Positions 8,015 to 34,020 of a stretch of DNA of 34,193 nucleotides are shown piece by piece. The position numbers were made by a program, and so were the translations under genes. A model generated the notes under the pieces. It made no database searches, was not told the DNA's origin, and saw nothing but the letters and a program-made list of their open reading frames with translations. The stretch's first letter is position 1, and the number at the start of each line of letters is the position of its first letter. This DNA comes from Candidatus Binatia bacterium (GTDB lineage: Bacteria > Desulfobacterota > Binatia > UBA9968 > JAJDTQ01). Location: positions 1 through 34,193 of the forward strand of contig JAJDXX010000183.1 in assembly GCA_022823055.1 (NCBI GenBank), given 5' to 3'.

Positions 8015-8983
8015 TCAGCCGGGAATTCCCACCAAGGACAGGATGCGTGAACGAAAGTCGCGAAACTCGTCGCCTTCGCCGCGCTTGAGTTCGGATATCC
8101 GGTAGAAGCGATTGGTTGACGGAGACTCCCTGCTCGCCATCTCCAGGTCGATGTTGTCCACGTTGACGATGGTCCAACATTCGACGAAGCCGGCTTGTCT
8201 GGCCTTCTGGTGGCTTTTCTCGGCCTCGCCTATGCGGTTGTGGATGTTGGAGAAGTCCGTGCCGGACTTGACCTCAATGGCGATGACGTTTCGATGCTCC
8301 TCGGGAGCCAACTCTTCCACGATGACGATATCGGGATCGGCAGCGAACTGGATCGTCACGTTTCGGCCAGAAGCGTTGTTGATGTCGAGCCGCTTGCTGC
8401 TCTGCCTTTGGATGCTCTCCTTCACCACTTCCCGGATGGCGTCGAAGACGACCACGATGCCCGCGCTGCCCTTTCTGACGTTCGCCCCTCCACGCAGTTG
8501 CGGTCCCAAGGTCAGCAACGTCAAGTCGTCGAGGAATTGTGGTTGGATATCCTCTTCGTCAAGGGCCTCCAACAACAGGGAGGCACAACGGCTCATGCCT
8601 GCACAAAGGTCGGGCAGCAACTCGTCTTGCCGGGAAGAAAGCGCACCGCTGTCTTCCATGCTCTTGAACTGCCCAGCGCCGCCACCGCTGCCGTAGAAGG
8701 CCTTCTGGCTGAAACCGAGCAGTAGCCTGTAGTAGCCAAGAAGCCGCGGGTTCCTGCGAAGCAGGCAGGGGACGGGGAACAGAAGCTCCCCCCGCAGACC
8801 ATGCACCGCTAGACGCTTGAGGTCCACTTCGCTCACGGAATCGCGCAGTTCCGCGTCAATCTCGTGCAGAGACGCCTCCCGGACGGTTGCCAGGAGTGCC
8901 TGCTGCAACAGTTGACTGCGGATTGTCTTCAACAACCTGGAAAAGTCGATCTGCAATTCGGGCGGGGGTAGGTCGATCATCAC
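8015..8983 (-). CDS. Type II restriction endonuclease, XcyI-family-like
   Basis: PD-(D/E)XK pattern DPDIVIVEE...NVIAIEVKSGTD; LLGYYRLLLGFSQKAFYG; immediately downstream of and coupled to a beta-class DNA methyltransferase. Start may be GTG 8983 or ATG 8980. Confidence 0.7.
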   Translation of the reverse strand: MMIDLPPPELQIDFSRLLKTIRSQLLQQALLATVREASLHEIDAELRDSVSEVDLKRLAVHGLRGELLFPVPCLLRRNPRLLGYYRLLLGFSQKAFYGSGGGAGQFKSMEDSGALSSRQDELLPDLCAGMSRCASLLLEALDEEDIQPQFLDDLTLLTLGPQLRGGANVRKGSAGIVVVFDAIREVVKESIQRQSSKRLDINNASGRNVTIQFAADPDIVIVEELAPEEHRNVIAIEVKSGTDFSNIHNRIGEAEKSHQKARQAGFVECWTIVNVDNIDLEMASRESPSTNRFYRISELKRGEGDEFRDFRSRILSLVGIPG

Positions 8984-9918
8984 GGACTGCCGAGGTTCAA
9001 CTCCAGTTGTTGTTCGTGCACTGACAGACGGCCCGCGGCGAGTTCGACGTATTCAGGATGCAACTCGATGCCGATATATCGTCGCCCGGTCTTCTGGCAG
9101 ACCAGACCCACGGTACCGGTCCCGAAGAATGGGTCCAGCACGTAGTCCCCGGGACGGCTTCCCGCCATGATGCAGGGTTCGATGAGCTTGGCCGGAAACG
9201 TCGCGAAGTGCGCGTCCTTGGTGGGCTCGGTGTTCACGTCCCACACCGAGCGGCGATTGCGCTTGCGCCCACCGTTGTCGCTCGGCTCCTTGATCGCCTC
9301 GTGGTCGTAGTAGTAGCGCTCGCTTTTGGTGAAAAGGAAGATGTACTCGTGCGCTCGCGTGGGTCGGTCCTTGACGCTTTCGGGCATGGCATTGGGCTTG
9401 TGCCACACGATGTCGCTGCGCAGGTACCAGCCATCCTCTTGGAGCGCTAGCGCCAAGCGCCACGGAACGCCGATCAAATCCTTGGGCTTGAGACCTTCCG
9501 GCGTCTCCGGGCGAACGGACATGGCACGAGCGCGGTTCTTCTTGTCAGGGGCACGCCAAGTCCTGTTCCCGCTCGTGTAGCCGTCACCCACGTTCAACCA
9601 GAAGGTCCCGTCCGGCTTCATGACTCGCTTCACTTCGCGGAAGACAGCGGTGAGACGGTTGATGAACTGGGACAGCGTCGGCTCCAGGCCGATCTGATCT
9701 TCGATTTCGTAATCGCGAAGACCCCAGTACGGCGGCGAGGTCACTACACACTGAACGCATTCGCAGGGTAGGCGCGAGAGGACGTGTTGCGCGTCTCCGT
9801 GGAGGATCATCGACTCGGTGAGTCGGATGTCCGGCGTGTAGCTAGGCAGCTTCTCGCTAACGATGAAGGCCATCTGTCCCCGCGGTCCAAGTGACAAGGT
9901 ACGGCGGCGAATCTCCAT
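8980..9918 (-). CDS. Site-specific DNA methyltransferase (beta class, N4-cytosine/N6-adenine), R-M partner
   Basis: Motif IV TSPPYWGLRDY near the N-terminus and motif I DPFFGTGTVGLVCQKTGRRYIGIEL near the C-terminus (permuted, beta order). Alternative start at internal MAFIV. Confidence 0.93.
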   Translation of the reverse strand: MEIRRRTLSLGPRGQMAFIVSEKLPSYTPDIRLTESMILHGDAQHVLSRLPCECVQCVVTSPPYWGLRDYEIEDQIGLEPTLSQFINRLTAVFREVKRVMKPDGTFWLNVGDGYTSGNRTWRAPDKKNRARAMSVRPETPEGLKPKDLIGVPWRLALALQEDGWYLRSDIVWHKPNAMPESVKDRPTRAHEYIFLFTKSERYYYDHEAIKEPSDNGGRKRNRRSVWDVNTEPTKDAHFATFPAKLIEPCIMAGSRPGDYVLDPFFGTGTVGLVCQKTGRRYIGIELHPEYVELAAGRLSVHEQQLELNLGSP

Positions 9919-17568: not shown

Positions 17569-17652
17569 CGACTTCCCGCAACTCGCCCGGGAATGATGGC
17601 ATCCCACCCCCGACGGGACCCGGATGCCCTTGCCCCCGGGTGTCCCCGCGAC

Positions 17653-19401
17653 ATGGACGCCATCAAGCTCGAGGTCATCTACAACGCCACCAACCAGATC
17701 GCGTACGAGCTGACGCAGAAGCTCATGCGCAACGGCTATTCGTCCATCGTGAAGGAGAGCCAGGACCTGGCCTTGAGCATCTGCGACCGCGAGGGGCGCA
17801 ACGTCGGACAGTACTCCCCCAACCCGGTGGGGCTCGGGGTGGTGGGGTCCCAGCTCAAGGGCATCCTCCAGGATTTCTCGGGCGCCATCGGAGAGGGCGA
17901 CACCTTCATCCTGAACCACCCCTACCGCTACTGCCAGAACCACCCCAGTGACGTCACGCTGATCGCGCCGGTGTTCTATCAGGGACAGCTCATGGCCTTC
18001 GTGGGCAACACCGCCCACAAGCCCGACATCGGCGGCAAGGTGCCGGGCACCAACGCCGGCGACGCCACCGAGGTGTTCCAGGAAGGACTGCTGATCCCGC
18101 CGCTGAAGCTCTACGAGGGCGGCGTTCTCAACGAGGCGGTGAAACAGCTCATCTGCGCCAACACGCGCATTCCGGAGGTCACCTGGGGCGACATCCGCGC
18201 ACAGGTCACCGCCAACCTCCACGGCATCGACCGGCTCGCCGCGCTGGCGGATCGCTTCGGCCTCGACGACGTGCTCGCCTGCTGGGAGGAGCGCATCGCC
18301 ATCACCGAACGGGAGCTGCGCTCGCGCATCGCCGCCATGCCGCCAGGCACCTACGGACCAGTTACCGACTACATCGACGACGACGGCGTGGAGCTGGACA
18401 CGCCCCTGGAGGTCACCGCGACGCTGCACGTGCGCGGCGACGAGCTGGAGTTCGAGTTCGCCTCCGCCAAACAATCGCGCGGCCCCCTCAACCTGCGTCC
18501 CTGCGTGGTGCGGGCAGTGGCGGAGTACTGCGTGCAGGCCGCCATCGGGCCGGACCTGCCCAAGAACCAGGGCTGCTCCGCGCCCATCCGCATCACCCTG
18601 CCGGCCCCCGGGCACCTGCTCAACCCGGAGTTCCCGGCGCCCGTGAACATGTACGCCACCACCTGCCACCGTCTGGCGCCGGTGATCATGATGGTCTTGG
18701 CACAGGCTCTGCCCGACCGCTTGGCCGCACCCCAGAGCAGCTCCGGCGGCGCGGTCTCGTTCAACGGCGTGGACCCGAGCGGCGGACGCCGCTACTCCCA
18801 GTACGAAATCCTGTGGGGCGGCTACGGCGCCCGGCCGGGGAAGGACGGCGTCAGCGGCTGCGCCGCCGACATCAGCAACGTCATGAGCACGCCGGTGGAG
18901 GCGCTGGAGAACGAGTTCCCGGTGCGCATGCAGTGCTTCGAGGTGAATCCCGACTCCGCTGGGGCAGGGCAATACCGCGGCGGCCTGGGAATCCGGCGCG
19001 CCTGGCAGGTACTGAACGACGACGTCACCCTGAACCTGCGCCTGGACCGCTTCAAGTTCTCCTCCCCGGGCCTGTTCGGCGCGCGCCCCGCCGCGCCGGC
19101 GCGCTGCACTCTCAATCCGGGCACCGGCGACGCCCGCGCGCTTCACTCCAAGACGGCCAACATCCCCCTGTCGAGGGGCGACACCCTGCTGCTGGAGTTG
19201 GGCGGGGGCGGCGGCTGGGGCGATCCCCTGGCGCGCGATCCCGAGCGCGTGCTCGACGATGTGCGCAACGGCTACGTGTCGCCGAAAGCAGCGCGGGAAG
19301 TGTACGGCGTGGTCGTCGACCCCGAAAACACGACCGTCGACACGGCGGCGACGGAGAAGGAACGGGCCGCGCGTTGCCGACCTGCCCTCGCAGATTCGTA
19401 G
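17653..19401 (+). CDS. Hydantoinase B/oxoprolinase family protein (copy 1)
   Basis: DAIKLEVIYNATNQIAYELTQKL..., GDTFILNHPYRYCQNHPSDVTLIAPVF, LELGGGGGWGDPLARDPERVLDDVRNGYVS; alternative start 17593. Confidence 0.93.
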   Translation: MDAIKLEVIYNATNQIAYELTQKLMRNGYSSIVKESQDLALSICDREGRNVGQYSPNPVGLGVVGSQLKGILQDFSGAIGEGDTFILNHPYRYCQNHPSDVTLIAPVFYQGQLMAFVGNTAHKPDIGGKVPGTNAGDATEVFQEGLLIPPLKLYEGGVLNEAVKQLICANTRIPEVTWGDIRAQVTANLHGIDRLAALADRFGLDDVLACWEERIAITERELRSRIAAMPPGTYGPVTDYIDDDGVELDTPLEVTATLHVRGDELEFEFASAKQSRGPLNLRPCVVRAVAEYCVQAAIGPDLPKNQGCSAPIRITLPAPGHLLNPEFPAPVNMYATTCHRLAPVIMMVLAQALPDRLAAPQSSSGGAVSFNGVDPSGGRRYSQYEILWGGYGARPGKDGVSGCAADISNVMSTPVEALENEFPVRMQCFEVNPDSAGAGQYRGGLGIRRAWQVLNDDVTLNLRLDRFKFSSPGLFGARPAAPARCTLNPGTGDARALHSKTANIPLSRGDTLLLELGGGGGWGDPLARDPERVLDDVRNGYVSPKAAREVYGVVVDPENTTVDTAATEKERAARCRPALADS

Positions 19402-19434
19402 ACCCGTTTGTAAGACAGCACGCTAGAGGCGACC

Positions 19435-21459
19435 ATGCTGCGCATCGGCATTGACACCGGCGGTACGTTCACCGACCTGAGCGTGTTCGACGAGGACGAC
19501 GGACGGGTCTGCCTCACCCACAAGCTGCCGTCGCAACCGCAAGACCCCACCGCGGCCATCGCCGCCGGACTGCGCGAGATCACCGCGCGCCTGCCGGAGA
19601 AGGCCCGCTACGTGCTGCACGGCACCACCATCGGGCTCAACACGCTGCTGGAGGGAGGCGAGCCAGCGCCGGGCCTGCTGGTCACCGAGGGTTTCCGCGA
19701 CCTCCTGGAGCTGGACCGGCAATGGCGCGGCGACCAGGTGTACAACCTGTTCTTCGACCGTCCGCGGCAGCTCGTGCCACGGAGGCTGATCCGGCCAGTG
19801 CGAGAACGTGTGGACTCCCGCGGACACGAGGTGCTTCCGCTGGACGCGGAACAGGCCCGCGCGGCCGTCCGGGAGTTGCTGGACGCGGGGGTGCGCTCCG
19901 TCGCCGTGAGCCTGCTCTTCTCCTTCGCCAATCCCGAGCACGAGCGACGGCTCCGGAGGATTCTGGAAGAGCTCGCGCCGGACATCTACGTGACCCTGTC
20001 GTCGGAGGTGGACCCGCAGTTTCGCGAATTCGAGCGCACCAGCACCGCGGTGGTCAACGCGTTCATCGGCCCGCGGGTCAGCGGCTACGTCGGTACCATC
20101 GAAACCGCGGTCCAACAACTGCTGGAAGGCGCCCGGGTGCTGATCATGCAGTCCAACGGCGGCGTCGCCACGCCCGCGGTGATCGCACGGGCGCCGGTAC
20201 AGACGCTGATGTCGGGTCCGGTGGCCGGGGTCGTGGGGACCCACCGCCTGTGCCGTGAGATCGGCCGCGACAATGCCATCTCGCTAGACATCGGCGGCAC
20301 GAGTTGCGACATGTCGGTGATCCCGGGAGAGCTTCTGACCGCGCCCCAGAGCACGGTGGCAAGCTACACCGTGCGCGCCGCCACCGTCGCCATCGAAACC
20401 ATCGGGAGCGGCGGCGGCAGCATCGCACGGGTCGAGTCCGGCCGCATCCTGAAGGTGGGGCCACAGAGCGCCGGCGCGGTCCCCGGGCCCGCATGCTACG
20501 GCACCGGCGACCAGCCCACCCTCACCGACGCTCTTGTCGTGCTCGGGCATCTCAACCGGGAGGCGCTCCTGCAAGGCGCCATGCCCATCGACGCCGGGGC
20601 CGCCCGCCAAGCCATTGCCCAGACCATCGCCGGACCGCTGGAGATGACCCCGGAACGCGCCGCGGCGGGCGTCGTCGAGGTGCTGGCCGCCCAGGTGGCC
20701 ATGTCCATGCGCTCGGTGACCATCGAGAAGGGCTACGATCCCCGGGACTTCATCCTGGTGGCCTACGGCGGCGCCGGACCCACGGTGGCCTGCCCCATCG
20801 CCCGGGAGCTGGAGATCCCCGAAATCTGCATCCCCCAGGACCCCGGCAACTTCTGCGCCGCCGGCATGCTGCTCACCGACTTGATCCGCGGCCACTCCCT
20901 TACGCGCATCGGCGCGCTGGACGACACCCCGCCGGACGCCATCCGGGAAGCTTTCCGGGAGCTGCGCGACAAGGGCGTGCGGGAGCTGCGCGAGCAAGGC
21001 GTGCCCGCGGACGCCATCGACACCGAGGACTTCCTGGACATGCGCTACCCCGGCCAGTCCTATGAGGTCACGGTGCCGGCCGGAGACACCCGCAAGGAAG
21101 TCCTTACCCGGCTCTTCCACGAAGCCCACGGGCGGCTGTACGGCCATACCGCCGAGGAAGAGTCCATGGAGATCGTCAACTACCGCGTGCGCTGCATCGG
21201 CCGACTGCCTAAGATGACCTTCGCCGCCGCACCCGCCGCCGGCGGTCCTGCCCAGGCCGGGAACGAACGCGCCGTGTTGTTCCCGGAGAGCCCCACTCCG
21301 GTGTCCACACCGGTCTACCGCCGCACTGGCCTCACACCCGGCTTCCGCACCGCAGGACCGGCGATCATCGACGAGTACAGCTCCACCACCGTCGTATACC
21401 CTTTCTTCGACCTGTCCGTGGACGCCCACGGCAACCTCAGGCTGCGGAACACGGCATAG
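19435..21459 (+). CDS. Hydantoinase/oxoprolinase subunit A family protein (copy 1)
   Basis: MLRIGIDTGGTFTDLSVFD, ATP-binding-type SLDIGGTSCDMSVI, GGGSIARVESGRILKVGPQSAGAVPGPACYG. Confidence 0.95.
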   Translation: MLRIGIDTGGTFTDLSVFDEDDGRVCLTHKLPSQPQDPTAAIAAGLREITARLPEKARYVLHGTTIGLNTLLEGGEPAPGLLVTEGFRDLLELDRQWRGDQVYNLFFDRPRQLVPRRLIRPVRERVDSRGHEVLPLDAEQARAAVRELLDAGVRSVAVSLLFSFANPEHERRLRRILEELAPDIYVTLSSEVDPQFREFERTSTAVVNAFIGPRVSGYVGTIETAVQQLLEGARVLIMQSNGGVATPAVIARAPVQTLMSGPVAGVVGTHRLCREIGRDNAISLDIGGTSCDMSVIPGELLTAPQSTVASYTVRAATVAIETIGSGGGSIARVESGRILKVGPQSAGAVPGPACYGTGDQPTLTDALVVLGHLNREALLQGAMPIDAGAARQAIAQTIAGPLEMTPERAAAGVVEVLAAQVAMSMRSVTIEKGYDPRDFILVAYGGAGPTVACPIARELEIPEICIPQDPGNFCAAGMLLTDLIRGHSLTRIGALDDTPPDAIREAFRELRDKGVRELREQGVPADAIDTEDFLDMRYPGQSYEVTVPAGDTRKEVLTRLFHEAHGRLYGHTAEEESMEIVNYRVRCIGRLPKMTFAAAPAAGGPAQAGNERAVLFPESPTPVSTPVYRRTGLTPGFRTAGPAIIDEYSSTTVVYPFFDLSVDAHGNLRLRNTA

Positions 21460-21595
21460 GCGGTTCACACTTGGGAGCGCTCTCCGTCACCGGGGACCGA
21501 CCGTTGATCTTCGCGGTGACCCCTTCGCCAAGAGGCAGCCGCACGTCGCCGGGACAGCTCGTACCAGGACCCCAGGCCGGGCCGCGGAGGAGGGG

Positions 21596-22153
21596 CTATC
21601 TGAATTCAATCATGCCGAGCCTCGTGAACTGCATGCGGTCCGCGGCGCCGGCGGGAATCACGGTGAGCTGGTGGATGGCGTACTCGTGCTCGTAGCTGCT
21701 CTTGGCGTTGACGCCGTCGAGCGGGACGACGACGTTGTAGCGATGCACGCGCGCGGCGGCGGTGGCGGTGTAGAGCACGGCGACGTTGGTGAGGGAGCCC
21801 GTGACGACGAGGTTCTCGGTGCCGGCGCGGCTCAGGATCGCCTGAAGCTCGCCGCCGGCGAACTTGTCGAAGGCGTCGGGATGGAGCACGGGTTCAGTAT
21901 CCCGGCGCCCGAGAGGCGCCGCCACCTCCCCCATGGGGGTGCCCTTGAACTGCAGCGAGACGGTGAACACCACCGGGACGGAAGCCTGCCGGACGCGCTC
22001 CAGGAAACCGCCCAGCGGCTCCATCAGCTTTGAGCAGACCTCCTCCGGGTCATGGCAGCGTGCGTTCAGGTCCAGCACCACCACCGCGGTCTTGGCCGCA
22101 TCCAGGGAGACGGGTTTCGGTTCGGGCCGGTTGGGGCCGGTGGTCTCGGTCAT
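21596..22153 (-). CDS. Isochorismatase-fold cysteine-hydrolase-like protein, catalytic Cys and Lys not conserved
   Basis: AVVVLDLNARC, VPVVFTVS, LVVTGSLTNVAVLYTATAAARVHRYNVVVPLDGV; ATG 22153 with GAGGAG upstream. Confidence 0.85.
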   Translation of the reverse strand: MTETTGPNRPEPKPVSLDAAKTAVVVLDLNARCHDPEEVCSKLMEPLGGFLERVRQASVPVVFTVSLQFKGTPMGEVAAPLGRRDTEPVLHPDAFDKFAGGELQAILSRAGTENLVVTGSLTNVAVLYTATAAARVHRYNVVVPLDGVNAKSSYEHEYAIHQLTVIPAGAADRMQFTRLGMIEFR

Positions 22154-22209
22154 CGGACATTCTCCTCTCACATGGAACCAACTGTGCCTCTTCCGCGCTG
22201 TCCTTCGCT

Positions 22210-24039
22210 CTAGCCGACTCGCTCCTCGCGCAGGCGCGCGCGTAGCTCACGGGTCGCGGCTTCGTCGACCTTAAGGGTTCCCTCGTCCACGACAACACCG
22301 TAGATTTCCTCGGCGGTGTCCCGGGAGATGCGCTGGTTCACCAAGCTCTCCGCCACGGCCCCGGGCTCCCGGTCCAGAGGGTCGCCGTAACCACCGCCGC
22401 TCCCCAGCCGCAAATACAGGACGTCGTCCTTGCCGATCTCGAACTCGCAGTAGGGGAGCAGCCGCCGCTCGCCCTCCAGGGCCGGGAGTCCATCAATGCA
22501 CTGGTGGTTCGCCAGCAGCTCGTTGACGCGCGTGCCTTCGAGCAGCACCAGCAGGCTCGGGGCGCCGGGGTAGCCGCCGAACAGGCCCACGCCCGAGTTC
22601 CTCAGGCCGGCCACGCCGAAGGCCACACCGCGGATCCTTTCCTCCGGCGCGTCGTGCAACTTCACCGTGGCCTCCACGCCCACGCCGCCGGCGAACTTGC
22701 CCGCGCCGCCACCGTCCTGCAGGTGGCGCCGAAACAGGTACATGAGCGGGAAGTTCAGCTCGAGCCACTCCACGTTGTGGCAAGTGAGATAGCCGCCGGA
22801 GTCGATGCCGTCGCCGTGGGGGCTCGCGCCGGCGCCGCTCAGTTCCAGCAGCGTGGAGACGTAGAAGCGGCCGTACTGGTTGACGCCAGCGTGGCGCACC
22901 ACGCGGAAGCCTAGTGTCAGCGCCGTCACCTCGTCCCTCCAGGTGTCGCTGCCCGCCAGCATCTGCGCCAACACCGAGGCGGAGACATAGGAGACGGTCT
23001 TGAGGCCCGAGGTGGTGTTCATGGACACCGGACCGGGATACTGCACGTTCACCACCGTGCCTTCCGGGGCAATCACCTCGATGGGGCCGAAGGCGCCGTA
23101 GTTCTTGGGCAGGTCGTAGCCCAGGGCGGTCAGCACCGCCTCGAAGACCCCGCCGAAAGTGGCGTGGTACGGCAGATTGATGCCCTGCCGCGCCTGGGGA
23201 TCGCTGCCGGTGAAGTCGAACGTCAGTCGGTCGCCGCGCTTGCGCAACTCGACGCACACGCGTTTCGTCTCGTTGGCCGCGATGGTGCCGGAGTCGCTCC
23301 AGGTGCCGTCCGGGATCTCCCGGAGGCGCTTCTGGAGGGTCTCACGCGCGTAGCGGATTATTTCCGCGGACACAGCGGTAATGAGCTCGGGGCCGTACTG
23401 TTCGAACATCTCCTCCATGCGCGAGCGGGCGACGTTGTTGGCCGCCATCTCGCACTTGAGATCGAGCCCCACCAGCACCGGCTGCCGGGTCATGTTGGTG
23501 AGGGTGTCGAACACGTCCTGGCGCATCCGGCCCCGCTCCACGAGCTTGAGGCCCGGAATGCGCAGTCCCTCGTGGCAGATCTCGGTGGCGCCCGGGGAGT
23601 TGCCGCCGGGCGACATGGCGCCGATGTCCATGACATGCACGAAGGTGGCGCTCCACGCCATCAGCCGGTCGTGGTAGTGGATCGGCGCGATCATGTAGAT
23701 GTCGGATTGGTGGATGGCGGCCAGGTAGGGGTCGTTGAGCAGGAACACGTCGCCCGGGTGGATGCCGCCGTTGTCCTCGAAACGCTCGATGATGCGCTTC
23801 ACCGCGAACCCGGCGCACGCCGCATGCCGGATCATCGACTCCCCCACCGACAGCACGTCGCCGTTGGCCGTGTAGAGGGAGGCCATGTAGTCGTGAAGCT
23901 GCGTGGTGTTGACCGTGCCGCCCACGCGCTCCAGGGTGGCGCCCATCTCGCGCGTGATCTCGTGGAGGCGGTGAGAGAGGATTTCGAAGGTGACGGGGTC
24001 CACTTGGGAGCTCGCCGCGCCTGTGTCGGTTACGTCCAT
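22210..24039 (-). CDS. Hydantoinase B/oxoprolinase family protein (copy 2)
   Basis: VDPVTFEILSHRLHEITREMGATLERVGGTVNTTQ; GDVFLLNDPYLAAIHQSDIYMIAPI; LRLGSGGGYGDPLDREPGAVAESLVNQRIS. Confidence 0.94.
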   Translation of the reverse strand: MDVTDTGAASSQVDPVTFEILSHRLHEITREMGATLERVGGTVNTTQLHDYMASLYTANGDVLSVGESMIRHAACAGFAVKRIIERFEDNGGIHPGDVFLLNDPYLAAIHQSDIYMIAPIHYHDRLMAWSATFVHVMDIGAMSPGGNSPGATEICHEGLRIPGLKLVERGRMRQDVFDTLTNMTRQPVLVGLDLKCEMAANNVARSRMEEMFEQYGPELITAVSAEIIRYARETLQKRLREIPDGTWSDSGTIAANETKRVCVELRKRGDRLTFDFTGSDPQARQGINLPYHATFGGVFEAVLTALGYDLPKNYGAFGPIEVIAPEGTVVNVQYPGPVSMNTTSGLKTVSYVSASVLAQMLAGSDTWRDEVTALTLGFRVVRHAGVNQYGRFYVSTLLELSGAGASPHGDGIDSGGYLTCHNVEWLELNFPLMYLFRRHLQDGGGAGKFAGGVGVEATVKLHDAPEERIRGVAFGVAGLRNSGVGLFGGYPGAPSLLVLLEGTRVNELLANHQCIDGLPALEGERRLLPYCEFEIGKDDVLYLRLGSGGGYGDPLDREPGAVAESLVNQRISRDTAEEIYGVVVDEGTLKVDEAATRELRARLREERVG

Positions 24040-24142
24040 GGTCGTTCGCTCGCCTGGTACCGCAGCCTCAAGATGAGCGGGGCGATTTTCGCAAGACTCC
24101 CTGTCCTGCGCAAGGCGCGGCGACAAGCGGCCGTAAAACGGG

Positions 24143-26272
24143 TCATGCGCCCGCCTTGTCCCCCACCAGGATCCGTATGTTGCGGAAACCGTCGATCTCG
24201 GCGCGGTCCCGCGGGTTCACCACTACGGTGGTCACGGGGGTCTCGATGACCGCCGGACCCGACAACTCCGTTCCCGGCCCCATGCGCTGGAAATCATAGA
24301 TGGCGGTGGGCGCGAAGTCCCCAAGCTCCTCGAAGAAGACGCTTCGCTCCGGCTTCCGCGCGTCGTCCGCGGACGCCTTGACCGCCGGTTCCTCCTTGAT
24401 GCGGGGCTTGTTCAGCAGCCCCACCGCGGTCACGCGGAAGGTCAGGATTTCCTTGCCGGCCTCCCGGTAGCCCGAGCCCTTGCCGTAGGCTTTCTCGTAG
24501 GCATCGTCGAAGTCGGCGTAGAGCCGCTCCAGGTCGGCATCCGCGAGAGGAGCGGTGCCGGTGGGCAGCGGCACGTTCAGTTCGTGCACCTGGTAGCGGT
24601 AGCGCATGTCGATGCCGCGGGTGATCGCCATTTCGGACGGGCCAAACCCGGCCTCGCCCAGATCCGCCTCAGCCCTGCGGATCAGCTCGGCGAAGTTCTC
24701 GTTGACGCGGCTTGGGTCGGCCGGCACCTGGAGGTGATCGGATTTGCCGTACTCGTGGACCACGTCGGAGCTGATCAGGCCGGTGGCGCCGTGCACCGAC
24801 GCGGTGAGCGGGATCACCACCTGCCGCACGCCCAGGTCCGCGGCGTAGCGGCTGGCGTGCATGGGGCCGGCACCGCCGAAGGCGAACATCACGAAGGACC
24901 GCGGGTCGTGCCCCTTTTCCACGGTGGCCCGGCGGATGAGGTCGCTCATGTGCGCGTTGGCGATGCGGTAGATGCCGCGGGCGGCCTCGGTCACGCTCAT
25001 GCCGAGGGGCTCCGCGATCCGCTGTTCCACCGCCCGGAGCGCGGCGCCGCGGTCCAGGCGCATGCGCCCGCCCAGGAAGTAGTCCGGGTTGAGATAGCCG
25101 AGGATGACGTCTGCGTCGGAGACCGTGGGCTCCACCCCGCCGAGACCGTAGCACACCGGGCCGGGACTGGCGCCGGCGCCCTCGGGTCCCACCTTGAGGA
25201 GCCCCGTATCGCTGTCGATCCATGCGATGCTGCCGCCGCCGGCTCCCACAGACTCCACCCAGATCTTGGGCGCCAGCACCCGGTGGCGCAGCACCACCGG
25301 CGTATAATCGCGTTCGATGCGCCCCTCGCGCACCACGCCCACCTTGAACGTGGTGCCGCCCATGTCCGTGGCCAGGATGTCGTTCTCGCCGATCATCTCG
25401 CCCAGGAACCGGCTCCCCACCACACCCGACGCCGGGCCGGACTCGACGGTGCCCACGGCGTTACGGCAAGTGGCGTCGATGTCGAGCACGCCGCCGTAGG
25501 CCTGCATGATCATCGGCGGCCTTGCCAGCCCCTTGCCCCGGAGCACCTGGTGGAGATTCGTGAGATAGGTCGAGATGCGCGGGCCGATGTAGGCGTTGAA
25601 CACGGTGGTGGCGGTGCGCTCGTACTCGCCCACGAAGGGCGCCGCCGCGCTCGACAGCGTGACGTAGACGTCCGGATGACGCCGCCGCAGGATGCCGGCC
25701 ACGGCCTTCTCATGGACGTCGTTGGCCACCGACCAGAGCAGGCACACGGCCACGGACTCCGCCCCGCGCGCCACCAACTCGTCCAGCGCGGCCGCCGCCT
25801 GCGCCTCGTCGAGGCTCACCGCGACCGAGCCCTTGTAGTCCATGCGCTCGTTCACCTCCGCCACGAGGGACCGGGGCACGAAGGGCTCCGGCTTGCGCAG
25901 CCACGCGAGCCGGCCCGCCTCGGCCTCGGTAAGGCCGTCGGTGACCTTCCCGCGCATCATGAGCAGCGTGTCCGGGAAACCCCGGGTGGCGACAAGCCCG
26001 GTCCTCGGGCCGGAGCGGGTGATCAGGGTGTTCTCACCGATGGTGCAGGCGTGGAAGAAGAGCGTCGTCCGGCGGAGCAATTCCTCCTCATCGCCGAAGC
26101 CGATGTTGCGCGCCGCGTCCCGGACGGCGTCGGCGGCCCCGGTGGAATAGTCGGGCAGGGTGGAAAGCGACTTTCCCACCACCATCTCGCCCCGGTCGTT
26201 GAGCACGACACAGTCGGTGAAGGTGCCGCCGATGTCCACGCCGACCATGTATCGACCTCGGGAATCAGCCAT
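24143..26272 (-). CDS. Hydantoinase/oxoprolinase subunit A family protein (copy 2)
   Basis: YMVGVDIGGTFTDCVVLND; LATDMGGTTFKVGVV; GGGSIAWIDSDTGLLKVGPEGAGASPGPVCYG. Confidence 0.95.
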   Translation of the reverse strand: MADSRGRYMVGVDIGGTFTDCVVLNDRGEMVVGKSLSTLPDYSTGAADAVRDAARNIGFGDEEELLRRTTLFFHACTIGENTLITRSGPRTGLVATRGFPDTLLMMRGKVTDGLTEAEAGRLAWLRKPEPFVPRSLVAEVNERMDYKGSVAVSLDEAQAAAALDELVARGAESVAVCLLWSVANDVHEKAVAGILRRRHPDVYVTLSSAAAPFVGEYERTATTVFNAYIGPRISTYLTNLHQVLRGKGLARPPMIMQAYGGVLDIDATCRNAVGTVESGPASGVVGSRFLGEMIGENDILATDMGGTTFKVGVVREGRIERDYTPVVLRHRVLAPKIWVESVGAGGGSIAWIDSDTGLLKVGPEGAGASPGPVCYGLGGVEPTVSDADVILGYLNPDYFLGGRMRLDRGAALRAVEQRIAEPLGMSVTEAARGIYRIANAHMSDLIRRATVEKGHDPRSFVMFAFGGAGPMHASRYAADLGVRQVVIPLTASVHGATGLISSDVVHEYGKSDHLQVPADPSRVNENFAELIRRAEADLGEAGFGPSEMAITRGIDMRYRYQVHELNVPLPTGTAPLADADLERLYADFDDAYEKAYGKGSGYREAGKEILTFRVTAVGLLNKPRIKEEPAVKASADDARKPERSVFFEELGDFAPTAIYDFQRMGPGTELSGPAVIETPVTTVVVNPRDRAEIDGFRNIRILVGDKAGA

Positions 26273-27922: not shown

Positions 27923-28867
27923 GTGCTGACCATCCACCGGAAGATCAGGGGTGAGCGATTGAGCAGCAAACCGTCGAAATCTGAGATTGCCCGTTGTCGC
28001 ACGGGCATGGCTGAACTGCTGACGGATGCGGTCGCGATGACGCACAAGCTTGAGCGGAGGTTGGACGTTACCGGCGGTTGGTGCGAAGCCACAGCGGATA
28101 TCGACATCAATGCAGATCCGGTCGCGACCGTAGGGATCGCAGGCGCGCTGCTGCTTCGCAAGGCGCGGATACACACGGTCGCCGTCCTCCGGGCCAACGA
28201 AACCAGCAACCTGCACTCGCTCGCGGTGCAGATGCGGTCGGTTCTCGAATGTGCCGGACAGGTCGTGTTCCTCTATCAGAACCTGATCATTGCACCGGAT
28301 CTGCTGATGTCTCGGGAAAACGCCATAGCAGCCGTCGGGAACCGATTGAACGCGGATTTCTATCAAGCGCTCCGCAGCAGAACGAGAGGCCAAATCAGTG
28401 GAGAGAAGCTGCGCGAAATGGCTATAGACGCGCAAACCGCAGCGGCAGCATCAGTCGGGGCGGCGACGCCTAAGCAGCAGAAGGCGTGGAGCCTCAATCA
28501 AGTAGACAAGACGGCAACCCTTGAGAAAGGCCACGAATGGTACAGCTACTTGAGCGACCACTTTACTCACGGCAAGCTGGCGGACTGGAAGGGGCTTTCG
28601 TGGCGGGGTGGCGTTATTTCGATCGACATGGTCGAGGACGAATTCACGTTCTTGGGATTGATGTCCTATCTAGTGGACCAAGTGGCTCTTATGAACTCTG
28701 CCGCAGCATTGTGCCCAGTCGCCGGTGACGCGAACGATCAGTGGGACCGTTGGATAGAACCTACGCTGGTGCAACTACGCCACGTGCGGGACTCATCGAA
28801 GAAGCTCGTGGACGCCGCCAGAATTGCCGCGACAGGACAACCGGATGGAAGCACTCGAACCGATTGA
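27923..28867 (+). CDS. Hypothetical helical protein (DUF5677-like impression)
   Basis: Long ORF; LLLRKARIHTVAVLRANETSNLHSLAVQMRSVLECAGQVVFLYQN and HEWYSYLSDHFTHGKLADWKG. Starts possible at GTG 27923 or TTG 27959. Confidence 0.6.
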   Translation: MLTIHRKIRGERLSSKPSKSEIARCRTGMAELLTDAVAMTHKLERRLDVTGGWCEATADIDINADPVATVGIAGALLLRKARIHTVAVLRANETSNLHSLAVQMRSVLECAGQVVFLYQNLIIAPDLLMSRENAIAAVGNRLNADFYQALRSRTRGQISGEKLREMAIDAQTAAAASVGAATPKQQKAWSLNQVDKTATLEKGHEWYSYLSDHFTHGKLADWKGLSWRGGVISIDMVEDEFTFLGLMSYLVDQVALMNSAAALCPVAGDANDQWDRWIEPTLVQLRHVRDSSKKLVDAARIAATGQPDGSTRTD

Positions 28868-29372
28868 GGTGCAGCGCGCTCGGTGCAAACAGTATCGGGA
28901 TCAGCTTCACAACCTTGCTCAAATCCATATCGATATAGACACCCCGAAACGCAGAGTGCGGCCGGACGAGCCAGACTTGGTCTTCCGGCTTCGCAAAGTG
29001 TGCCTTCATGCGCTAGCGATCGCCAAATGCGAAGTCAGCGCCGACGGTATGCACGTGATGACAACGGAGCTGCGGGCGGCGTACGAGCAGATGGACGCCG
29101 TATGGAAATGCCTGCCAGACGAATGCCGATTCGATGAGGACCGCGAATGGTGGTCTGACGAGGCAAGAGATGGGCTGGCGGCGTACAGCCATCCGACGCC
29201 GGTCAGCTTGGCCTTGCCGCTGGCGACGGGCGGCTTCGATGATGCCGATTCACCAGCGACTTTCCTAAAACTCGCCGTATGGCTGGGCCGCCTCGGATGC
29301 GCATACGGACTAGCACTCGGCTATCTGGCACGCCTGCTGGGCATCAACGGCAACATCGACTTCCGTCTGTAG
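28845..29372 (+). CDS. Hypothetical protein, overlapping partner of the 27923 gene
   Basis: MEALEPIEVQRARCKQYRDQLHNLAQIHIDIDTPKRRVRPDEPDLVFRLRKVCLHALAIAKCEV...; 23-nt overlap with the upstream gene suggests translational coupling. Confidence 0.6.
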   Translation: MEALEPIEVQRARCKQYRDQLHNLAQIHIDIDTPKRRVRPDEPDLVFRLRKVCLHALAIAKCEVSADGMHVMTTELRAAYEQMDAVWKCLPDECRFDEDREWWSDEARDGLAAYSHPTPVSLALPLATGGFDDADSPATFLKLAVWLGRLGCAYGLALGYLARLLGINGNIDFRL

Positions 29373-29502: not shown

Positions 29503-29526
29503 GTTGTCAACGAAATCGTTGACAAC
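29503..29526. promoter_or_regulatory. Perfect 24-bp palindrome (11-bp arms, 2-bp centre), candidate operator 1
   Basis: GTTGTCAACGA-AA-TCGTTGACAAC; contains the TTGACA -35 hexamer at 29519-29524. Confidence 0.75.
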
Positions 29527-29547
29527 AGACTCCGCGTGTTGTATCGT
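29519..29547 (+). promoter_or_regulatory. Candidate sigma70-like promoter of the tandem ATPase operon
   Basis: TTGACA (29519-29524), 17-bp spacer, TATCGT (29542-29547), 28 bp before ATG 29576. Confidence 0.5.
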
Positions 29548-29567
29548 TCAACAGTTTCGTTGAACGA
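29544..29567. promoter_or_regulatory. 24-bp palindrome (9-bp arms, 6-bp centre), candidate operator 2
   Basis: TCGTTCAAC-AGTTTC-GTTGAACGA; shares TCAAC-N4-TCGTTGA with operator 1. Confidence 0.7.
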
Positions 29568-29575
29568 GGTTCCTC

Positions 29576-30820
29576 ATGAGATCGTCTACGGGCCGCTGGG
29601 TGAGTGGCGATGGCTTCTTCGATCGCAAGGCTGAATTGGAGATACTCGAATCGCGAGTGCGCGGGCGCAACCATGTGCTGTTGACCGGACAGCGCCGCAT
29701 GGGTAAGACCAGCGTCCTCCGCGAGCTCGGGCGTCGGCTCGCGTACGATGGCTGGATATTCCTGTTCGTCGATGTCGAGGGAGCTGCCAGCCCGGAGGAT
29801 GCGATTGCCGACATCGCGCAGGCGGTACACCCATATCGACCCATCGCGTCCCGTTTCGCGGAGGGCATCAGACGCTGGCTCTCCGACAGGATCGAAGAGG
29901 TTAGCGCGAGTCAGTTTCGATTGAAGGTTAGGGCCGGCCTGGATCCCGGTAGCTGGCGCCGATACGGGGAGCGGCTGCTGCGCGACTGTGCAAGCCAGGA
30001 AGAGCCGGTCCTGCTGGTCATCGACGAAGTGCCGATTTTCCTGAAGCGCATGCTTGAGCGCGACGAAAGCGCCGCGCGGGTAGATGAGTTCCTGAGCTGG
30101 TTGCGCGCCACAACCCAAGCGCTGGGAGAGAATTCTCCAGTTCTCATCCTGTCCGGCAGCATCGGGCTGGAACCCCTTGTGCGCCGGCTGGGTATTCCCG
30201 ACCGCATCAACCATCTCGACCCGTTCCGGCTAGGTCCATGGAACCGGGAAACCAGTGTCGCCTGCTTCGAGCGTCTGGCGGAGAGCCATAGATTGCCTGT
30301 CGATGGCGGCGTGGCGGGTGCGGTGTACGACTCGCTTGGCGTGGGCGTTCCTCAGCATGTCCAGTCCTTTTTTGCGCGTCTTCGGGAGCACGCCACCATG
30401 CAGGGGCGGGACCGAGTGACGGTCGAAGATGTCGCCGAGGTCTATCGCAACGGGCTTCTAGGTCCCTCCGGGCAGAGCGACCTCGTGCACTACGAGACGC
30501 GGCTCAGGGAAGCCTTCGATGACGAAGGCTATTCGCTCGCCATGGAGATCGTCGCAGAGGCGGCGATCGAGGGGGCGTTCACGCTGGGCGCAGAGCGCAG
30601 CCTGGCGGCCCTGTACCACGAGCTGGTGGAGGACGTGTCTGTGCGCATCGCGGATGCGCTGGAGGTGCTCGCGCACGACGGCTATCTGGAGGCCGGGGAG
30701 GATGGGTACCGTTTCCAGTCCCGTTTGCTCAAGGACTGGTGGACAGCGCGCTTCAGGGACCACCATGTCGCGCTGGAGAGGCGCCTTGAAGCCTCCGCTG
30801 CGGTGGGAAACACGAAATGA
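29576..30820 (+). CDS. P-loop ATPase with C-terminal winged-helix-like region (archaeal ATPase/STAND-like)
   Basis: FDRKAELEILESRVRGRNHVLLTGQRRMGKTSVLRELG (Walker A), PVLLVIDEVPIFL (Walker B), PVLILSGSIGLEPL (sensor-1-like), C-terminal RIADALEVLAHDGYLEAGEDGYRFQSRLLKDWWTARF. Confidence 0.85.
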   Translation: MRSSTGRWVSGDGFFDRKAELEILESRVRGRNHVLLTGQRRMGKTSVLRELGRRLAYDGWIFLFVDVEGAASPEDAIADIAQAVHPYRPIASRFAEGIRRWLSDRIEEVSASQFRLKVRAGLDPGSWRRYGERLLRDCASQEEPVLLVIDEVPIFLKRMLERDESAARVDEFLSWLRATTQALGENSPVLILSGSIGLEPLVRRLGIPDRINHLDPFRLGPWNRETSVACFERLAESHRLPVDGGVAGAVYDSLGVGVPQHVQSFFARLREHATMQGRDRVTVEDVAEVYRNGLLGPSGQSDLVHYETRLREAFDDEGYSLAMEIVAEAAIEGAFTLGAERSLAALYHELVEDVSVRIADALEVLAHDGYLEAGEDGYRFQSRLLKDWWTARFRDHHVALERRLEASAAVGNTK

Positions 30821-33555
30821 GCGGGACAGAAGCCGCCGTGGCGAACGGAAAGCGTCCCATACGCAAGTTCAACCCGGGTCTGCTCCAGTCCGACGAGGAG
30901 GTGATCGCGCAGTTCGCGGTCAGGCAGCACGAGTTCGAAATCGTCAGCGAAGTGCTGCGGAGCAACATCGGTACCCCATCGTGCCAACACACCCTCATCG
31001 TTGCTCCAAGGGGCCGAGGAAAGACCATGCTGCTTGCCCGCGTGGCGGCGGAACTTCGAGGGAACCCGCAGTTCGCCATGCATCTTCTGCCCGTCCGGTT
31101 CATGGAGGAGAGCCAGGAGGTCTATGATCTCGCCAGCTTCTGGCTGGAGACGCTGTTCCACCTGGCCAGAGAGATCGCGGCGGATCATCCCGAGTTTGCG
31201 CGGGAGTTGTCGGAGACCCACAGTTCCTTGTCCTCCCGATGGCGTGAAGAGGGCCTGGAGGGGATCGCCCGGGCAGCCGTACTGGACGCGGCGGACCGGC
31301 TCGGCCGCAGGCTCGTGCTCATGGTCGAGAACCTGCAGTCGCTCTGCGAAACCGTGGACGAGGAATTCGGGTGGCAACTGCGTGGGGTGCTCCAGTCCGA
31401 GCCCCAGATCATGCTGCTGGCCTCGGCCACCAGCCGCTTCGAGGGTCTGGAGGATGCCGGGGAGCCTTTCTTCGAGCTGTTTCGGATCGTCAATTTGCAA
31501 CCGCTGACCACCGAAGAGTGTCGCCGTCTCTGGACCATCGTGAGCGAGCAGGAGCTCAGCAGGCACGAAATCAGACCGCTCGAAATTTTGACGGGCGGGA
31601 GTCCCAGACTCCTCGTGGTGATTGCGGCGTTTGCGCGGCATCGGTCATTTCGCCAACTGATGGAGGAACTGGTCGGTCTGGTCGACGAGCACACGGAGTA
31701 CTTCCGCGGCCATCTGGAGTCGCTGCCGAAGAATGAGCGCCGCGTCTATGTCGCCCTGATCGATTTGTGGCAGCCCTCGAGCACCGGCGAGATCGCGACG
31801 CGGGCGCGCCTGGATGTCCGGGTCGTATCCACAATGCTCGGACGGCTGGTCGACAGGGGCGCGGTGACCGCGGAGCCGGATGGAGGCGGCAGGAAGCGGC
31901 TCTATGCTGCTTCTGAACGCCTCTACAGCATCTACTACAAGCTGCGCCGCGAGCGCGACGAAGCGGCCGTGGTGGAAGCCCTGATCCGGTTCATGGTGGT
32001 CTTTTACGATGTGGGCGAAGTGTGGCGCATCTCGGACCAGTTGTTTCAGGACGCTTTGGAGTCGGCCGAAATTCATGCCGGAATTGACCGCGCACTGGCT
32101 GGGAAACCCACATTGCGCGATCTCGTGGGAATTGACAGTGCGGGGGCCAGGAAACTACTTTCGGACGACTCCCCCATGAAATGGGATTCAGTCAGGAGAG
32201 TCTCCGATAAGGTCCACGATAGGCGGCGCGTCGACGCCCGAATGCGATTGCACAATGACATCAAGGCAGCCTCTGAAAACAAAGACTGGAAGCGCGTTCT
32301 GGAGATCGTCGAGCAATATGTTTCCCATGGATGGCTCGCTTCGGGATCGGAATGGGAACACGAGGATGACTGGGCCTTTCTCGCGCACATGAGAAGCAAC
32401 GCGCATCTCATGCTGGGCGAATTGGATCAAGTGGTCGCCATCGGGAACGAAGTTGCCGAAAGGCTTGGTGACCCGCGAGAAATGACGTTGCTGTCCAGAG
32501 CGTGCGCAGTGGCGCTCAACAAGGCGGCGGCACAATTGGAACTCGGAAACTTCGAGACGGCGAAATCGGAGTGCCGACGGATCGTCGATCAGTTCGCAGA
32601 GTTCGACACGCGGTGGTTCCAGGAGGAAGTCGCGGCTGCGCTCCTCGGGCAAGCGAAGGCAGAGAACAAACTCGGTGATTTTGGTAATGCAATCGCTTTG
32701 CTGGATGAGGTCCTGGTGCGGTACGGGGAGAGCGAAAATCAACACGCTCAGGTGCAGGTTGCACGATCGCTGGTCCTCAAGGCGGAAATAGTGAGACGGC
32801 GTCAAGACGATCACAGGGGGGCCGCGGCGATTTACGGGGAGATAATCAAGAGGTTTGGCCACAGCAAGCATCTGGAAATCCGCAAGCACTTGACGAGTGC
32901 TCGGATAAACCGAGCTTTTGCTTTTGGGGCAATTGGCGAATTCGATGAGGAGATCGCTTCCTATGACGAACTGATCGTTCGGCTTGATGATCTTGATACG
33001 CTGGGGGAGAAATGGACCGCGCTGGTTGCCCTAGCGTTCAAAACTCGAAGATTGGCAGAGTTGGGTATAGCCGACGAGGCTCTGCGGGCGTGTGACGACT
33101 ACGCTCGTCGCCTTGAGGCCAGTGCCGATGAGTGTTCGATAGAGACGCGAATGTGGATGGATTGGCACGCGAATAGCTCGCGTGCCTTGGCATTGATGAC
33201 CAAGGGTGCGTCAGAGCCTGCCATGGAGGCCTTCCGGTTGGCATACGCCGCATTCCTGCCTCACTACGAAATTGCGATGGGCGAGATGTTGCGGCTGGTG
33301 CCGGAGTTGATCGCGGCGGGTGCTTCGGAGCATGAACTGGTCGGAGTGCTTGCCGGAGACGACGGAAAATCGGAAGCGTTGCTGCCCATGATCATTGCCC
33401 TGCGACAAAGGGCGGGCGAGACGGTTCGCGCTCCGGCAGAAGTGCTCCAGGTGGCGGCCGATCTCCGGAAGAGCATCGAGGAGCGGATCGCCAAGGGTGT
33501 CATGCCCGGCTTCATGCTTCGATTGGAAGACATGAATAGTCAGGACGAAATCTGA
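30817..33555 (+). CDS. P-loop ATPase + winged helix + TPR-like repeat protein (STAND-like), 912 aa
   Basis: Walker A LIVAPRGRGKTMLL, Walker-B-like RLVLMVENLQSL, IMLLASATSRFE; wHTH-like TGEIATRARLDVRVVSTMLGRLVDRGAVTAEPDGGGRKRLYAASERLYSIYYKLRR; C-terminal helical repeats (ELGNFETAKSECRRIVDQF, KLGDFGNAIALLDEVLVRYG, GAIGEFDEEIASYDELIVRL). ATGA overlap with upstream gene. Confidence 0.85.
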   Translation: MSGTEAAVANGKRPIRKFNPGLLQSDEEVIAQFAVRQHEFEIVSEVLRSNIGTPSCQHTLIVAPRGRGKTMLLARVAAELRGNPQFAMHLLPVRFMEESQEVYDLASFWLETLFHLAREIAADHPEFARELSETHSSLSSRWREEGLEGIARAAVLDAADRLGRRLVLMVENLQSLCETVDEEFGWQLRGVLQSEPQIMLLASATSRFEGLEDAGEPFFELFRIVNLQPLTTEECRRLWTIVSEQELSRHEIRPLEILTGGSPRLLVVIAAFARHRSFRQLMEELVGLVDEHTEYFRGHLESLPKNERRVYVALIDLWQPSSTGEIATRARLDVRVVSTMLGRLVDRGAVTAEPDGGGRKRLYAASERLYSIYYKLRRERDEAAVVEALIRFMVVFYDVGEVWRISDQLFQDALESAEIHAGIDRALAGKPTLRDLVGIDSAGARKLLSDDSPMKWDSVRRVSDKVHDRRRVDARMRLHNDIKAASENKDWKRVLEIVEQYVSHGWLASGSEWEHEDDWAFLAHMRSNAHLMLGELDQVVAIGNEVAERLGDPREMTLLSRACAVALNKAAAQLELGNFETAKSECRRIVDQFAEFDTRWFQEEVAAALLGQAKAENKLGDFGNAIALLDEVLVRYGESENQHAQVQVARSLVLKAEIVRRRQDDHRGAAAIYGEIIKRFGHSKHLEIRKHLTSARINRAFAFGAIGEFDEEIASYDELIVRLDDLDTLGEKWTALVALAFKTRRLAELGIADEALRACDDYARRLEASADECSIETRMWMDWHANSSRALALMTKGASEPAMEAFRLAYAAFLPHYEIAMGEMLRLVPELIAAGASEHELVGVLAGDDGKSEALLPMIIALRQRAGETVRAPAEVLQVAADLRKSIEERIAKGVMPGFMLRLEDMNSQDEI

Positions 33556-33618
33556 CAGGCGGTGTTGATTGGCAGGCGCCTGCGTTACGTGGCCGTCGAC
33601 CGGAGGACTGAGTGCATC

Positions 33619-34020
33619 ATGAGTTGGTTGATCAAATGCAGTGGGCATCTCACTAATCGGGTCACGAAGGCCGCCAATATAGTAGGTCTTCTTAACGCCC
33701 ACCGTGATGCTCAAGACTGGTTTCGTTGTGGCTGCTGTGGGGGCCGGGGCTACATCGAAAAATGTTTCAAGCTGCAAGAAGAAGGCGAATACTGGAATCC
33801 TTACCTGTTGGGTGCGGTGCGTCTAAGTGACAATCCTGAGAACACCTATCAGCCGTTCGCGTTCCTGGTCAACGAAGACAGTCCGTCCCAGGCTCCGGAT
33901 GCCGTCTGGTTCTCCTACTACAAGGACCTCCGCCCTCACGGAGGGAGGTTGAAGCTCGGGTACGGTCCCGGCGGGCCGCCTGTAGTTGCGCTGGACCAGC
34001 TTGCCAAACTGATCCCGTGA
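33619..34020 (+). CDS. Hypothetical small Cys-rich protein
   Basis: MSWLIKCSGHLTNRVTKAANIVGLLNAHRDAQDWFRCGCCGGRGYIEKCFKLQEEGEYWNPYLLGAVRLSD...; GGAGG upstream of ATG 33619. Confidence 0.6.
   Translation: MSWLIKCSGHLTNRVTKAANIVGLLNAHRDAQDWFRCGCCGGRGYIEKCFKLQEEGEYWNPYLLGAVRLSDNPENTYQPFAFLVNEDSPSQAPDAVWFSYYKDLRPHGGRLKLGYGPGGPPVVALDQLAKLIP

Follow-up and report, generated by a model that had tools for sequence, protein, structure and literature searches.

Putative operators at the promoter of a widespread two-ATPase operon

Two related palindromes bracket a predicted promoter ahead of a pair of ATPase genes, A1 and A2, in the 34,193-bp stretch of DNA from a Candidatus Binatia bacterium that we analysed (the window), raising the questions of whether they are operators and, if so, which protein reads them. 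Palindrome 1 (29503-29526) has the sequence GTTGTCAACGA-AA-TCGTTGACAAC, with perfect 11-bp arms about a 2-bp centre, and palindrome 2 (29544-29567) has the form TCGTTCAAC-N6-GTTGAACGA (TCGTTCAAC-AGTTTC-GTTGAACGA), with perfect 9-bp arms and a centre of 6 bp; both were also recovered by an inverted-repeat search. An earlier note on this DNA had placed the two exactly to the base, 41 bp apart from centre to centre, and had recognised that they share TCAAC-N4-TCGTTGA at the same offsets, all of which holds. They sit in the 203 bp that separate A1 (29576-30820) from an upstream ORF (28824-29372).

The promoter elements are interleaved with the palindromes. The -35 hexamer TTGACA (29519-29524, + strand) lies within palindrome 1, and the -10 hexamer TATCGT (29542-29547, + strand) follows after a 17-bp spacer and overlaps the start of palindrome 2; this pair, which agrees at 10/12 positions against 0.2 such matches expected, is the only sigma70-like match between 29300 and 29700. 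The transcription start predicted from the -10 spacing (29553-29556, + strand) falls in the centre of palindrome 2, which covers the end of the -10 hexamer and the predicted +1 and, because of the position of that start, is probably not transcribed whole. A possible ribosome-binding site read from the sequence, GAGG (29566-29569, + strand), precedes the A1 start codon. Symmetrical sites thus overlap the core promoter, the arrangement expected of an operator over its own promoter.

Gene A1 (+ strand) encodes a 414-aa AAA+ ATPase that passes the Pfam cut-off for AAA_16 (47.1 vs 32.6) and is termed only ATPase_2-like because its score with ATPase_2 (PF01637) is under the gathering cut-off (26.0 bits vs 33.2); a confident structure model (mean pLDDT 89) shows a C-terminal winged helix-turn-helix (wHTH) at approximately residues 316-380. 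Gene A2 (30817-33555, + strand), the start of which overlaps the A1 stop, encodes a 912-aa AAA+/STAND-like ATPase with an N-terminal AAA+ domain, an internal wHTH (approximately residues 305-365) where its profile matches a MarR-family structure, and TPR repeats, and thus has the NTPase core, winged helix and superstructure-forming repeats of STAND proteins. Its recognition helix in the structure model (residues 334-347, within DVRVVSTMLGRLVDRG; 31816-31857, + strand) is our proposed half-site reader. The A1-A2 unit is found across at least nine bacterial phyla, and in nearly all loci the two genes adjoin each other; across the related loci neither a regulator nor any third gene is found repeatedly beside them. 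In the window, a 152-aa ORF with a GTG start (33562-34020) directly follows A2; it has no Pfam or PADLOC match, and no conserved third gene is seen in the relatives.

Motif counts in the window and in its own genome are by themselves suggestive. The 4.27-Mb genome has six occurrences of TCAACN6GTTGA, and two are at this promoter; a search of the window that tolerated one mismatch found no others there. With the same tolerance, two hits were obtained in 14 of 100 shuffled versions of the window. The comparison with relatives is what makes the case decisive that the palindromes are real, beyond chance. Regions upstream of A1 homologues were taken from whole-genome relatives and from 80 loci of named genomes, 77 of which had enough upstream DNA (the contig scan for loci used a 5-row alignment). 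CAACN6GTTG lies within 160 bp of A1 in 69 of these 77, against 0.54 expected from dinucleotide shuffles, and three half-sites in register are present in 60, against 0.02. CAACN6GTTG matches number 19 in the remaining 825,627 bases of the same loci, and several of these are also operators of the A1-A2 family. The earlier note had staked its reading on the palindromes being present upstream of orthologous operons; this was checked, and the motif is conserved there. Within its own genome, the full array is found at this promoter alone, and a site that is conserved with the operon while its array occurs nowhere else in the genome is what an autoregulated operon would be expected to show.

The relatives also revise the architecture of the sites. 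Half-sites are spaced with GTTG to GTTG at 15 bp (86 pairs), CAAC to GTTG at 10 bp and GTTG to CAAC at 5 bp, so that the basic unit is a 15-bp repeat, CAAC-N6-GTTG-N, with alternating 10- and 5-bp half-site gaps, rather than a 24-bp palindrome. From this alternation and period, palindrome 1 is best described as a piece of array, two 15-bp-register units with four half-sites (GTTG-T-CAAC-GAAATC-GTTG-A-CAAC), and palindrome 2 as an additional, out-of-register site. The 41-bp spacing that the earlier note took to set two dimers on one face of the helix does recur, as ten further loci have such an additional site at 40-42 bp from a unit of the array (L008, L042, L045, L053, L056, L060, L062, L067, L068 and L084), but it describes a subset only, and most relatives have the 15-bp-register array alone. 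Thus the conserved motif and the sigma70 promoter of that reading stand, its same-face dimers apply to a minority, and its 'tightly repressed' promoter is unproven.

Promoter overlap is itself a recurrent feature. In the window's clade (clade A) TTGACA forms part of GTTGACAAC and lies within the array as it does here, and a -10 hexamer with at least 4/6 agreement follows at 16-18 bp (mostly 17) in 29 of 43 loci, compared with 8.6% at random single positions, a contrast somewhat inflated by picking the best of several -10 candidates per locus. These loci support the earlier assignment of a sigma70 promoter. Many loci of the sister clade, read by eye, have the array across the start, a short way downstream of a -35/-10 pair. 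The arrays therefore either embed the -35 or cover the +1, and both layouts would suit repression.

We consider it reasonably probable (about 0.66) that the palindromes serve the A1-A2 operon as operators for negative autoregulation by one of its own proteins, most likely A2 acting by its wHTH. A2 would bind CAAC/GTTG half-sites in cooperating pairs, using the winged helix adjacent to its ATPase domain. Because the array holds the -35 and palindrome 2 covers the -10 and +1, the bound protein is proposed to block RNA polymerase and so keep expression of the operon low, and repression could be lifted by the ATP state or by a ligand that the TPR part senses. What the sequences show is the sites, how they are conserved and arranged, their overlap with the promoter, their divergence in step with the operon's proteins and their retention at A2 genes that lack A1. 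That A2 is the binder, that control is negative and that a signal lifts it is our inference, the sign being judged from the promoter overlap, and control may instead be by activation. Counting against A2 as the reader is that the wHTH in STAND proteins often has a structural role only, without binding DNA.

The operator has diverged together with the proteins. The base flanking GTTG is A or T in the clade in which A1 carries SSTGRWV and A2 carries RKFNPG, and mostly G or C in the NWV/KYNPG clade. With the operator labels of six divergent rows assigned by eye, this label requires two changes on the A2 tree, compared with approximately 24 in shuffles, and likewise two on the A1 tree, whereas host phylum requires 23. 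Five phyla (Pseudomonadota, Gemmatimonadota, Acidobacteriota, Chloroflexota and Latescibacterota) hold both operator types, and paired operons within one genome (L045 with L098, and L008 with L029) retain their own. Because operator type tracks protein clade and not host phylum, the reader of the array is most likely encoded within the operon. The earlier note had offered the wHTH regions of the ATPases or an unlinked repressor as binders; the former are favoured, A2 over A1, and the latter is disfavoured because operator type follows the operon proteins across phyla. The recognition helix of A2 switches with the operator clade, having R335 in 35/35 sequences of one and S or N in 31/31 of the other with S338 and R343 invariant, although the switch is essentially one deep change. 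The start of the A1 recognition helix is variable.

Covariation of the operator cannot separate A1 from A2, because both trees need the same number of changes, and A2 genes missing their partner were examined since the congruence of the trees could not single out the binder. Three loci have an A2 without an adjacent A1 and still have the operator. In L043 the operon is followed by a second A2 (L043:10194), which shares 64% identity with the first and has no A1 before it, and its promoter (L043:10100-10200) contains TCAACAATTTAGTTGA and TCAACTATTTGGTTGA, 41 bp apart; a full A1-A2 operon is also present nearby. In L214 (genome G008) a short ORF takes the place of A1 and CCAACAGTATCGTTGG is retained, with an A1 copy elsewhere in the genome. 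The third, L205, is a lone, distant A2 (29% identity) in genome G185, the only one of the three cases free of A1, with no match to A1 detected in the genome; the only exact copy of CAACAAAATTGTTG in its 6.5 Mb sits just before A2, with three near-copies further upstream. Solo A2 genes that keep the operator favour A2 as the likely reader.

An unlikely but substantial alternative is that A1 reads the array by its C-terminal wHTH, or that A1 and A2 bind jointly as a heteromer, just as archaeal Cdc6/Orc1 pairs bind together at origins. The A1 wHTH is confidently modelled and the protein resembles both the archaeal ATPases 2qen and 2fna and the DNA-bound Cdc6/Orc1 2qby. However, the start of its recognition helix varies inside a clade whose operator is constant, and the CAAC/GTTG operator survives where A2 lacks A1, in one case in a genome in which no A1 could be detected. 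A1 nonetheless remains a rival reader because A1-like ATPases without A2, which are closer kin of A1 than of A2, are preceded by their own arrays, some repeating every 15 bp. Repeats or palindromes precede the start (p<0.05) in 9/18 single-gene A1 relatives lacking A2 (Fisher 1.7e-5) and in 7/16 ATPase_2 proteins of 470 aa (Fisher 2.7e-4), both against 6/100 control genes, and in 0/6 of a third single-gene group of about 350-380 aa; these are small sets with start codons chosen by a simple rule and a crude score. The half-sites of these arrays are unlike CAAC/GTTG, and the same 15-bp period is present in L143, L172 and L175. A1-type proteins may thus bind DNA too, and autoregulation may be general among these winged-helix ATPases.

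Arrays lie just before the start of the single-gene ATPase_2/COG1672-like loci L143, L145, L034, L158, L172, L175, L185 and L187. In the window's own genome, a 471-aa ATPase_2-type gene on contig C28 (L190) has three direct repeats of approximately ACGACTTGTCAAAA, 16 bp apart, before its start.

Far less probable is binding by an unlinked host repressor that would count this promoter among the members of a wider regulon. A sigma70 promoter overlain by symmetrical sites is the usual form for one-component repressors, but this operator moves with its operon over many phyla and tracks protein clade rather than host, exact arrays are private to this promoter in its own genome, and no regulator gene recurs beside the operon. 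More doubtful still is a role for the array in the replication, partition or integration of a mobile element bearing the operon. The occurrence of relatives on plasmids, the movement of the operon between phyla and the ORC-like fold would fit such a role; however, the array is positioned relative to promoter and start codon, and the flanking genes differ by locus with no recurring integrase or replication gene seen. Least credible is that the palindromes function as RNA hairpins or terminators and not as protein sites. Read on the minus strand, palindrome 1 does score as a terminator-like stem with a run of T; however, the arrays include the -35 and are often upstream of the predicted start, the predicted start here is inside palindrome 2, and the 10/5-bp phasing of half-sites is kept while the central 6 bp vary.

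Binding by A2 at its own promoter would set this operon apart from the systems it most resembles. A2 shares its sequence of domains, first NTPase, then winged helix, then TPR repeats, with the STAND-TPR proteins PH0952 (PDB 6mfv, its best PDB structure match) and MalT. MalT-type regulators bind DNA via a separate C-terminal LuxR-type HTH, whereas in A2 the winged helix beside the ATPase is the proposed DNA binder. STAND ATPases with a TPR sensor have been described as a class (PMC6468293). Archaeal Cdc6/Orc1 proteins likewise combine AAA+ and winged-helix domains, and both A1 and A2 match the DNA-bound structures 2qby and 2v1u, a similarity of fold only; the A1-A2 sites are on a promoter and not an origin, and A2 has TPR repeats in addition. 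The nearest solved structures to A1, by sequence profile and by fold, are of the ATPase_2/COG1672 type (SSO1545, 2fna; PABY2304, 2qen), from which A1 and A2 differ in being paired and in having an operator array. We found no paper in the open-access literature on a DNA site or autoregulation for ATPase_2/COG1672-type ATPases, nor any report there of an operator or autoregulation for the families of A1 and A2, so novelty is provisional. A precedent is mycobacterial IniR, a regulator whose N-terminal ATPase domain resembles SSO1545 and which controls the iniBAC operon with a separate C-terminal LuxR-like DNA-binding domain (PMC5760070). WYL/BrxR-type repressors of defence operons are likewise transcriptional repressors tied to mobile operons, and there the repressor has a dedicated gene to itself (PMC9122601, PMC9122589), whereas the A1-A2 neighbourhood has none.

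A broader reading, which we put forward tentatively, is that A1-A2 is a widespread two-ATPase module that moves horizontally, and that a STAND/Orc-like AAA+ protein within it reads a 15-bp-period array on its own promoter with the winged helix adjoining its ATPase domain; nucleotide- or ligand-driven assembly would then directly set transcription, and single-gene kin would have evolved their own arrays on the same plan. Such ATPases are common, and the conserved operator together with a candidate code (A/T or G/C in the flank, R or S/N in the helix) provides a direct test of binding, and of whether a STAND-type winged helix can read DNA. The operator is also a handle on the regulon and the trigger of these ATPases.

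Membership of the MADS defence system was considered and rejected for want of accompanying MADS genes, as A1 has a weak match to mad8 (1.2e-5) and the other five proteins scanned match no PADLOC family. No claim of a defence role is made from the neighbours, among which type I methylase, mad2/mad3, GajB and PDC-S01 are scattered over 56 genes, many of them metabolic. A related two-ATPase operon on a Moraxella osloensis plasmid (L040) has the same 4-6-4 geometry but with half-sites CTAT/ATAG, and adjoins qatD, a Qat gene, as well as a gene for a protein kinase. Elsewhere in the window, an XcyI-like restriction endonuclease gene beside a DNA methylase gene forms a type II restriction-modification pair (8015-9918), and hydantoinase A/B (oxoprolinase-like) genes form two pairs on opposite strands (17593-26272).
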